Shown: one piece after another, positions 46,981 through 48,857 of the stretch
Layout: each line of letters starts with the position of its first letter
Numbering within the stretch: position 1 is the first letter of the stretch
Source: Anaerolineae bacterium
GTDB lineage: Bacteria; Chloroflexota; Anaerolineae; Aggregatilineales; Aggregatilineaceae
Assembly: GCA_018432315.1 (NCBI GenBank)
Contig: JAHDLB010000010.1
Location: 62,001 to 126,000 of the forward strand
Length of the DNA: 64,000 nucleotides
Direction of reading: 5' to 3'
The notes under the pieces: model-generated
Databases searched by the model: none
What the model saw: the letters and a program-made list of their open reading frames with translations, nothing else
What the model was told of the DNA's origin: nothing
Translations under genes and position numbers: made by a program

Positions 46981-47091
46981 GGTTAACCGCAGCCCAGAAA
47001 TCGCTGAGAGGTGCCTTAGAGATGGTAGGCGCCGGTGACCCCGCCGCACTATATTTGAGATAGCGCGGGTTCACACACTGCGAGGCGATTC

Positions 47092-47577
47092 ATGGGCCAC
47101 ACTGACGATTCAACGGTGCTCGATGCTCCCGACTTCGAGTTGACCGATACCGAGGGCAGCCGGTTCCGGCTGTCGGATTACCGCGGGAAAAAGCATATCG
47201 TGCTGGTGTTCAACCGGGGCTTCACGTGACCGCACTGCCGGCGGCACATGGCGCAGTTGCGCCAGGACTTCGAGCAGTTCATCGAACGCGATGCCCTGAT
47301 CGTCGTGGTGGGGCCGGAGAATGCGGGCGCTTTCAACAGCTATTGGACGGCGGAGGATCTCCCCTTCATCGGGCTGCCCAACCCCGATCACAGCGTTGCC
47401 AGGCTCTACGGGCAGCAGGTGCGGCTGATCAAGCTGGGGCGCATGCCGGCGCTGGTCATCGTCGACAAGCGCGGCAAGGTGACCTACCAGCACCACGGCA
47501 ACTCGATGCGCGACATTCCGGAGAACGAGCGTGTGCTCGCGCTGTTGGACGAGCTGAATAAATCCGAACAGGGGTGA
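47092..47577 (+). CDS. Peroxiredoxin/thioredoxin-fold protein with a probable selenocysteine (in-frame TGA at 47227-47229)
   Basis: Reading through the TGA gives one 161-residue AhpC/TSA-type redoxin: LDAPDFELTDTEGSRFRLSD, then VLVFNRGFT-U-PHCRRHMAQL, then VGPENAGAFNSYW and a complete thioredoxin-like C-terminus. The TGA is codon 46, exactly where the first redox cysteine of the C-x2-C active site is expected, leaving a U-x2-C pair with Cys49. Frame, domain and spacing continue unbroken on both sides. GAGG precedes the ATG by six bases. A hairpin of SECIS type follows the TGA. It would reduce peroxides or disulfides in the cytoplasm. The alternative is a nonsense mutation or sequencing error that truncates the gene. 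No selA, selB, selC or selD lies in the window. Confidence 0.75.
47249..47264 (+). promoter_or_regulatory. Candidate bacterial SECIS hairpin
   Basis: TGGCGC (47249-47254) pairs perfectly with GCGCCA (47259-47264) around the loop AGTT. The loop carries a G at its second position, 26 bases after the TGA, which fits the known distance and apical-G features of bacterial SECIS elements. Confidence 0.6.
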
Positions 47578-47630: not shown

Positions 47631-47771
47631 TCTATGTAGGCGTCTATGTTTTTCTGATTTCTTATAAATCATTCATGTTTATTTCTCCCTGCTTTAATCT
47701 TGGAGCCCTAAAGTCTTGATCACATGGTTCGAGCAGCCAAAGCTCGACATATCTCACACAAGGAGAAGACA

Positions 47772-48857
47772 ATGCGTAAACTGATCGTTCTGCTAACCCT
47801 CGTTGCGATTTTCGTCGCAGCCGCCGTTCCCGCCTCGGCCCAGGATATGGAAGAGATGGTCCATATCCGTGTGGCGCACTTCTCGCCCGATACGCCCGCT
47901 GTTGACGTGTACGTGAACGGCGAGGCGGCCATCACCGGGCTGGCTTTCCCGGACGTGACCGGCTGGATCGCCCTCCCGGCTGGCACCTACAATCTGGCCG
48001 TTGCCCCGGCAGGTACCTCGATCGATGACGCCGCCATCGGTCCGGCGGACTTCGAGCTTCCCGCTGGCGCGTACCTGACCATCGCCGCGATGGGGTCGCT
48101 GGAAAGCGGCTCGCTGGCGCCGTCCATCGTCCAGGAAGACTACAACGAGCTGATGGGTGAGAATGCCCGCGTGACCATCCTGCACGCGATCGAAGATGCG
48201 CCCGCGGTCGATATTCTGGCGGGCGATATGCCGGTGGCCGAAAACCTGGCGTTCAACGCCTACACCACGCTCGAAGTTCCGGCGGGCACCTATGACCTGA
48301 TGGTGGTTCCCACTGGCGAAACCGAGCCGGTCGTGATCGACCTGACCGGCACCGATCTGGCGGGTATGACCAATTACCTGGTGGCGGCTGTGGGCACGCT
48401 GGCCGAGCCGCAGGTTGTGGCCGAGGCGACCTACATGGGCACCGTGGTCGATCTGGCGATGGGCAACGAAAACTTCAGCACGCTGGTCGCGGCGGTGAGC
48501 GCGGCTGGCCTGGCCGAGACGCTGAGCGGCGAGGGTCCCTTCACCATCTTCGCGCCCACCAATGACGCATTTGCGGCGGCGTTCGAGGCCCTGGGCATCA
48601 GCGCCGAGGATCTGCTGGCCGACACCGACACCCTGACGAACATCCTGCTGTACCACGTCATTTCGGGCAAGGTGATGGCGGCGGACGTGGCGAGCCTGGA
48701 AGCGGCGACGACCCTCCAGGGCGCGGACATCGCCATCACCGTGACGGATGACGGCGTGTTCCTGAACGACAGCATCCAGGTGACGACGACCGACCTGGAA
48801 GCGACGAACGGCGTCATTCACGTGATCGACGGCGTGCTCCTGCCCCCGGCTGAATAA
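47772..48857 (+). CDS. Secreted protein with DUF4397 repeats and a fasciclin (FAS1) domain
   Basis: The 361-residue protein starts with a signal peptide (cleavage expected after ASA at residue 23). Residues about 28-225 contain two DUF4397-type units, each with a run like IRVAHFSPDTPAVDVYVNG or VTILHAIEDAPAVDILAG. Residues about 228-361 are a FAS1 domain (FSTLVAAVSAAGL, FTIFAPTNDAFAA, ILLYHVISGKVMAADV, and the final NGVIHVIDGVLLP). FAS1 domains mediate adhesion, so a surface or extracellular role is inferred. AGGAG lies six bases before the ATG. A strong terminator follows. Confidence 0.9.
   Translation: MRKLIVLLTLVAIFVAAAVPASAQDMEEMVHIRVAHFSPDTPAVDVYVNGEAAITGLAFPDVTGWIALPAGTYNLAVAPAGTSIDDAAIGPADFELPAGAYLTIAAMGSLESGSLAPSIVQEDYNELMGENARVTILHAIEDAPAVDILAGDMPVAENLAFNAYTTLEVPAGTYDLMVVPTGETEPVVIDLTGTDLAGMTNYLVAAVGTLAEPQVVAEATYMGTVVDLAMGNENFSTLVAAVSAAGLAETLSGEGPFTIFAPTNDAFAAAFEALGISAEDLLADTDTLTNILLYHVISGKVMAADVASLEAATTLQGADIAITVTDDGVFLNDSIQVTTTDLEATNGVIHVIDGVLLPPAE

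Follow-up and report, generated by a model that had tools for sequence, protein, structure and literature searches.

Prx-like proteins that carry a UXXC motif instead of TXXU were described from Sargasso Sea data (PMC1088965; papers are cited here by PMC number, each for the excerpt on which the statement rests). The family GOS Prx-like 1, with the domain PF00578 and the motif UxxC, is reported with 225 selenocysteine (Sec) and 2,740 Cys forms (PMC2398784), and Prx-like UxxC selenoproteins are listed in reviews of 2022 and 2026 (PMC9312934, PMC13188914). A 2006 survey counts three selenoprotein families and three selenoproteins in Chloroflexi (PMC1794560). Further, the AhpC selenoprotein of Blastococcus saxobsidens takes its Sec from UAG with a bacterial SECIS, and a figure legend in the same paper names Sphaerobacter thermophilus and Ktedonobacter racemifer as sources of aligned proteins (PMC5330540). 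The alga Thalassiosira oceanica has an AhpC_b selenoprotein whose origin its authors consider prokaryotic, and the prokaryotic homologues were found in the Cys form (PMC7539508). Among the matches listed for literature on Chloroflexota and related taxa, judged by titles and the starts of abstracts, a description of the subfamily presented below was not found.

We analyzed a 64,000-nucleotide stretch of DNA, called the window throughout, from the genome of an Anaerolineae bacterium (G000; 5.69 Mb, 66 contigs, 99.4% complete). An earlier note, made from the letters of the window, had read positions 47092-47577 as a probable selenoprotein gene. The features that concern us are the following.

47092-47577, plus strand: predicted selenoprotein gene of 161 residues with an AhpC/TSA (Prx-like) fold, ending at the stop codon TGA 47575-47577; based on the stop, the relatives and an AlphaFold2 model.
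47082-47085, plus strand: GAGG, probable ribosome-binding site 6 nt 5' of ATG 47092; read from the sequence.
47227-47229, plus strand: in-frame TGA, codon 46, predicted selenocysteine and first residue of U-P-H-C; based on the TGA kept in relatives and the Sec machinery in the genome.
47236-47238, plus strand: TGC, Cys49, second residue of U-x2-C; Cys in 158 of 159 TGA loci.
47249-47264, plus strand: predicted SECIS hairpin TGGCGC-AGTT-GCGCCA, 6 bp, -10.0 kcal/mol; based on energy, 25-nt spacing, pairing and codon constraint.

The frame is as the earlier note described it: ATG 47092, preceded by GAGG with a 6-nt gap, opens a frame that reaches TGA 47227-47229 and then stays open to the end of a complete redoxin. 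The readthrough product, translated from 47092-47577, includes ...FNRGFTUPHCRRHMAQLRQD... with the motif U46-P-H-C49. A single Pfam domain, AhpC-TSA (PF00578), covers residues 11-132 and so runs across codon 46 (E 2.2e-22, 79.8 bits, cut-off 26); the Redoxin profile PF08534 scores 72.5 bits, and an NCBIfam profile search of the product gave no model above its cut-off. An AlphaFold2 model built from 38 sequences has a mean pLDDT of 89.1 and a pTM of 0.86. The note's further reading, that the TGA stands where the first active-site Cys is expected and that the second Cys is kept, also agrees with these data, because the product reads U-P-H-C and the CPHC of ResA lies on UPHC in a sequence alignment.

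The first alternative to be weighed concerns the activity of such a selenoprotein, which may act mainly as a peroxidase and not as a thiol-disulfide oxidoreductase. A search of solved folds places Bcp/PrxQ peroxiredoxins at ranks 1-4 by E-value (3drn_A, TM 0.86), and the thiol peroxidase model PRK09437 of NCBIfam matches 38 of 38 members of the sequence set A1 at E <= 1e-5, both of which argue for a peroxidase. However, Sec peroxiredoxins have T-x2-U (PMC13188914) where this product has U-x2-C, the ResA motif aligns as described above, and in an alignment with the PrxQ-like paralogue of the same genome (L015), Cys49 is matched by the paralogue's Cys and Sec46 by a gap. ResA itself comes further down the fold search (1su9_B, TM 0.73), and the PDB sequence and fold searches do not discriminate peroxidase from disulfide reductase. 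We therefore consider a mainly peroxidatic role quite possible, its chance falling a little short of even.

The earlier note had named an alignment of close homologues as a check on the TGA. Codon 46 was read from the top tblastn alignment of every fetched locus, and 183 of 196 loci gave a match, the other 13 being L001-L013, the tRNA, SelA, SelB and SelD places. At 45% identity or more, codon 46 is TGA in 142 of 142 loci that reach it, the window's own included: 40 of 40 covering loci at 60% or more, 90 of 90 at 50-60% and 12 of 12 at 45-50%. Two loci in the 50-60% range do not reach the codon; L029 ends with its contig before it, and L106 is without an aligned frame before residue 50. Below this, the 12 covering loci at 40-45% identity comprise 10 TGA and 2 Cys (2 more do not cover the codon), the 8 at 35-40% comprise 5 TGA and 3 Cys (2 more not covering), and the 6 under 35% comprise 3 TGA (one of them L016, treated below), 1 Cys and 2 other codons (9 not covering). 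By taxonomic sample, a full-length relative with one TGA was found in 10 of the 18 genomes of the family, the window's included, and an eleventh (G003) is cut by a contig end; of 154 genomes from the order, 17 match at E <= 1e-18, with TGA in 16 of 16 that reach codon 46; and matches occur in 130 of 396 genomes of the class sample and 54 of 400 of the phylum sample.

These counts are to be read with their scope. The codon-46 counts leave out fourteen distant matches, for which 32-47% identity and a single TGA are listed (G414, G363, G355:C1:742811, G455:C1, G431:C46, G390, G249, G354:C84, G373:C22, G231:C41, G239:C52, G430:C144, G406 and G536), and four partial matches (G348, G180 and two pieces of G392) stop short of the codon. 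The TGA loci are partly non-independent, L179 and L180 probably being two pieces of one gene in G160. Twelve further rows of the family search, at 28-37% identity and uninterrupted by a stop, have motifs that mark them as apparent PrxQ-like paralogues and were excluded as relatives.

Cys at codon 46 was found in L105 (G423:C99; 44% identity), the only close Cys form, and in the more distant L107, L108, L109, L112 and L113. Because the genomes of L107, L109 and L113 also hold a TGA form, these three rows are paralogues; L108 and L112 are the sole matches of their genomes at the search threshold. The genome of L105 has a SelB wing domain, and in a FastTree tree of 181 rows and few columns L105 groups, on a long branch and with support 95, with three Sec rows, pointing to a likely Sec-to-Cys change in its lineage. 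Overall, the alignment shows that among close relatives the TGA is kept and the frame downstream of it conserved, with both halves of the frame, before and after the TGA, conserved as one unit, and the codon counts indicate that close relatives are almost exclusively Sec forms. A pseudogene or sequencing error, in which a Cys codon TGC or TGT had turned to TGA by chance and the frame had survived for now, needs one base change from TGC in a 66-contig draft; it is refuted for the family by the TGA in 142 of 142 covering loci from many separate genomes, by the same TGA in a Thermomicrobium roseum plasmid record titled complete sequence and by the conserved downstream frame, and for the window gene we give it practically no credence.

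The hairpin that the earlier note had read downstream of the TGA is exact in its letters. Its arms (T47249-C47254 and G47259-A47264) enclose the loop AGTT (47255-47258), and the intervening bases number 25 from the TGA to the loop and 26 to the loop G (G47256), the count by which the note's figure of 26 is right. Published bSECIS limits are a loop of 3-9 nt with a G in its first two positions, a stem of 4-16 bp, a distance of 16-37 nt from the UGA and an MFE <= -7.5 (PMC13188914); the window hairpin, with the loop AGUU, 6 bp, 25 nt and -10.0 kcal/mol, lies inside them, consistent with the note's proposal of a bacterial SECIS. We extended the analysis to 159 TGA loci (L016 taken out), comprising 140 in the main register, with the hairpin as in the window, and 19 in a shifted register. 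A scan with the published limits found a hairpin in 133 of the 159, with 116 of 140 in the main and 17 of 19 in the shifted register. As a control, 1718 overlapping stretches taken from these genes gave 133 hairpins (7.7%); that the two numerators agree is coincidental. The 26 loci that miss the strict limits mostly have stems weakened by G-U pairs. L079, where T replaces the conserved loop G, and L163, which has a different hairpin, are possible tests of SelB requirements.

Across the 140 main-register loci, standard base pairs fill 831 of the 840 cells of the six-pair stem, and sliding the 3' arm by 1-3 nt as a control lowers pairing to 147-548 of 840. Paired changes occur in four of the pairs. 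In the fifth pair, A-T stands for G-C (GCA/TGC) in L063 and L188, turning Arg57 into Cys; in the fourth, T-A stands for C-G (GTG/CAT) in L128, turning Arg57 into His; in the third, A-T stands for G-C (ACG/CGT) in L078, L150, L184 and L192, with T-G (TCG/CGG) in L075 and T-A (TCG/CGA) in L195; and in the second, C-G stands for G-C in 10 loci. Codon use in the same loci is nearly invariant under the hairpin, Gln55 being CAG in 135 of 135, Leu56 TTG in 139 of 140 and Ala54 GCG in 128 of 131; the share of CGC at Arg57 is 0.76, G-U pairing being possible for the third base of this codon. Beyond codons 54-57, the top codon share is 0.664 at 4- or 6-fold sites with a residue conserved in at least 60%, and the highest shares at 2- or 3-fold sites are those of Cys49 (TGC, 0.964) and Gln108 (CAG, 0.803). 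The Cys form L105 writes Gln-Leu-Arg as CAA CTT CGG, and the bSECIS-limit scan found no hairpin in 6 of 6 Cys forms, L105 included. Because the stem is paired, because in some loci the stem is preserved by paired changes that replace a residue of the protein, because the codons are frozen and because the Cys form is without the hairpin, the comparison indicates that hairpin 47249-47264 is under selection as RNA.

A search of the genome for the Sec machinery, also named in the earlier note, found tRNA-Sec, selA, selB and selD all present. A tRNA-Sec lies at C35:195251-195345 (75 bits, cut-off 47) with the anticodon TCA by ARAGORN, and three places with weaker matches of the tRNA-Sec model were checked and proved to be Ser tRNAs (L002-L004). 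Profile searches gave SelA at 452 bits, the SelB wing domain at 56.6 bits and SelD at 364 bits, the last with one in-frame TGA; SelA and the SelB wing are no more than 2 kb apart, on the contig that carries the tRNA-Sec. In 14 control genomes, the SelB wing model matched only in E. coli. Among the 396 class genomes, a SelB wing was found in 122 of 130 with the redoxin gene and 200 of 266 without it (Fisher p = 2e-6, kinship ignored), which is weak evidence for Sec decoding because SelB is also common in genomes that do not have the gene. The SelB-wing match was absent in 8 of the 130 gene-bearing class genomes (G208, G275, G294, G300, G325, G390, G406 and G493), five of which are less than 90% complete; the others are 97% (G493, with two TGA forms), 91% (G208) and 90% (G406) complete.

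Some bacteria reassign UGA, and a selenium-free decoding of codon 46, by reassignment to Trp or Gly or by readthrough with a near-cognate tRNA, was considered but found no support in the data. The gene's own stop is TGA, the genome holds tRNA-Sec, SelA, SelB and SelD, the TGA site aligns with a catalytic Cys, and the selected SECIS-type hairpin is not needed by plain reassignment, so that we regard this as highly improbable. Likewise, two separate products, a 45-residue peptide up to the TGA and a 109-residue protein from the ORF that begins at ATG 47248, of which the truncation would be plausible under selenium shortage, have a negligible probability, because the Pfam domain covers both parts, ATG 47248 shares bases with the hairpin and is replaced by a Leu or Ile codon in several relatives, and both halves are conserved as one unit.

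Overall, the results support the earlier reading of 47092-47577 as a probable selenoprotein gene, as neither absent Sec machinery, nor TGC or TGT in relatives at 45% identity or more, nor a decayed downstream frame was seen. On the sequence evidence, it is a real selenoprotein gene, functional by its conservation. That Sec is inserted at codon 46 of a single-domain peroxiredoxin-like redoxin, and that the full length is made, we hold to be nearly certain, since the computed evidence comprises the open frame, the TGA kept in relatives, a hairpin selected at the RNA level, the genes for Sec decoding and the predicted fold.

By analogy with CxxC and UxxC redoxins, a redox cycle of Sec46, Cys49 and a thioredoxin-type donor is rather probable for this selenoprotein. 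SelB with Sec-tRNA(Sec) would bind hairpin 47249-47264, and UGA 47227 would be decoded as selenocysteine, so placing Sec46 in the position of the first, nucleophilic Cys of CPHC, with Cys49 as its partner. Sec46 would attack an oxidized substrate, either a disulfide or a hydroperoxide; Cys49, as the resolving thiol, would form a selenenylsulfide with Sec46, which a thioredoxin-type donor would reduce. The N terminus, read by eye, has no apparent signal peptide or membrane anchor, and on that account the protein is taken to be probably cytoplasmic. Five elements of this scheme are inferred: that Sec is inserted in vivo, how the redox steps follow one another, the substrate, the reductant and the location.

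The 19 loci of the shifted register, among them L019, L086, L095 and L174, carry a similar hairpin at codons 50-55, 9 nt nearer the TGA, and form one clade with support 100 in the 181-row FastTree tree. Their hairpin is usually CGCGC-AGTTG-GCGCG, and the best one lies 16-17 nt from the TGA versus 25 nt in nearly all passing main loci. Codons 52-53 read CAGTTG in 13, CAGTTA in 2, CAGCTG in 1 and TCGTTG in 3; codon 53 is TTG in 16 of 19 and codon 56 in only 4 of 19. The Cys49 position is Cys in all 19, as it is in 139 of 140 main-register loci, the exception being Ala in L114. Protein residues follow the RNA, as seen from RAQLARLR in L086 compared with RRHMAQLR in the window gene. These counts indicate that where the hairpin has moved, codon 56 is freed and codon 53 is fixed in its place. 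The clade offers a natural experiment on the tolerance of SelB for UGA-to-SECIS spacing (25 versus 16-17 nt).

The relative in T. roseum DSM 5159 lies on a 0.9-Mb plasmid (NC_011961.1; L197:1971-2435) and has 40% identity, with U-P-Y-C as its motif. Its TGA stands at the same place and is followed by the hairpin CTGGCGC-AGTT-GCGCCAG, and in the PLSDB gene table the CDS ends at this TGA as a 42-residue hypothetical protein (WP_012643006.1). A search of the plasmid record found no SelB wing on it. NCBI lists T. roseum under Thermomicrobiota; older usage and GTDB place it in Chloroflexota. The strain provides a cultured test case for the redoxin selenoprotein.

The genome neighbors of the window gene give no clear functional hint. 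Upstream lies a pseudouridine synthase gene (PF00849 with S4), presumably of the RluD type, and downstream lie a DUF4397-fasciclin gene and a carbon-nitrogen hydrolase. The DUF4397-fasciclin product (47754-48857) is probably exported by the look of its N terminus, and no link between this gene and the selenoprotein was seen. Among 75 loci of sufficient length, ORFs resembling the hydrolase recur in 10 and same-strand ORFs resembling the synthase in 7, a pattern suggestive of shared ancestry. Other lineages have a different upstream neighbor: in 18 of the 75 loci (L049 and L090 among them), members of one ORF family end on the same strand at a distance of 27-137 nt from the aligned portion of the redoxin gene. 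At least 800 nt of upstream sequence is present in 68 of the 75; as the alignment usually starts at residue 12, the true gap to the start codon is smaller. The two of these 18 ORFs that were scanned encode alpha/beta hydrolases (PF00561), and a 30%-identical hydrolase of this type stands in the same place in T. roseum, overlapping the redoxin gene (L197:1115-1993). The upstream hydrolase is a possible functional partner of the selenoprotein, which we offer as a lead only.

Two other genes in the window's genome deserve mention. The in-frame TGA of selD (L011; G000:C61:13046-13981) lies in the motif U-A-S-K and is followed by the hairpin GGCGCAGGUUCUGCGCC, and this SelD is probably itself a selenoprotein by its sequence. 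A second AhpC-TSA gene, L016 (G000:C42:34392-34751), has an in-frame TGA in MAGG-U-PPC. Genes of this type, with one TGA each, occur in 9 of the 18 family genomes, and in 7 of 8 fetched loci, those picked by a motif scan, the TGA stands at the same place with a GAUC-GUN-GAUC hairpin after it; this hairpin is weak in 4 loci (-4.7) and reaches -8.1 kcal/mol in 3. A scan of L016 with the strict bSECIS limits gave no hairpin. L016 probably encodes a second selenoprotein.

Taken together, an apparent nonsense codon reads as a functional selenocysteine codon, which extends Sec use in an uncultured lineage. What goes beyond the routine is the near-exclusive Sec among close relatives together with the shifted SECIS position in one clade. 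With moderate confidence, we propose a largely Sec-only redoxin subfamily across the window's phylum, in which the SECIS RNA would dictate part of the protein (AQLR at 54-57, shifted 9 nt nearer the UGA in one clade), selenium would be near-obligatory and Cys replacement would be rare though members differ at up to half of their residues. If so, the subfamily is under-annotated, as the truncated 42-residue T. roseum entry suggests. The scarcity of close Cys forms also makes it testable why some thiol enzymes keep Sec where other families swap it.

The gene shares features with several known systems. The best NCBIfam match is the SelL-related redox protein NF040769, which aligns with residues 12-107 and matches 37 of 38 members of A1 at E <= 1e-5; at 70.7 versus a cut-off of 120 bits, with positions 3-99 of the 173 in the profile covered, the product is a non-member by that model. 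With ResA-type thiol-disulfide oxidoreductases it shares the CPHC aligned on UPHC, but it scores 44.3 against a cut-off of 170 bits (PRK03147), has Sec for the first Cys and has no apparent signal peptide or anchor. Sec peroxiredoxins (PF00578, TxxU) have the same Pfam domain and fold class, whereas Sec takes the first position of UxxC in the window gene (motifs from PMC13188914). Compared by published description, the B. saxobsidens protein is likewise of the AhpC type with a bacterial SECIS, but its Sec codon is UAG (PMC5330540), and the T. oceanica AhpC_b has an AhpC_TSA domain and UxxC, but is a eukaryotic gene (PMC7539508). The window gene fits among the Prx-like UxxC selenoproteins by the domain and motif under which these are listed, and with them it shares the AhpC-TSA domain, Sec first in UxxC, a hairpin soon after the UGA and a predicted redox role. 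Unlike GOS Prx-like 1, in which Cys forms outnumber Sec forms in the published counts (PMC2398784), its close relatives are almost all Sec forms.
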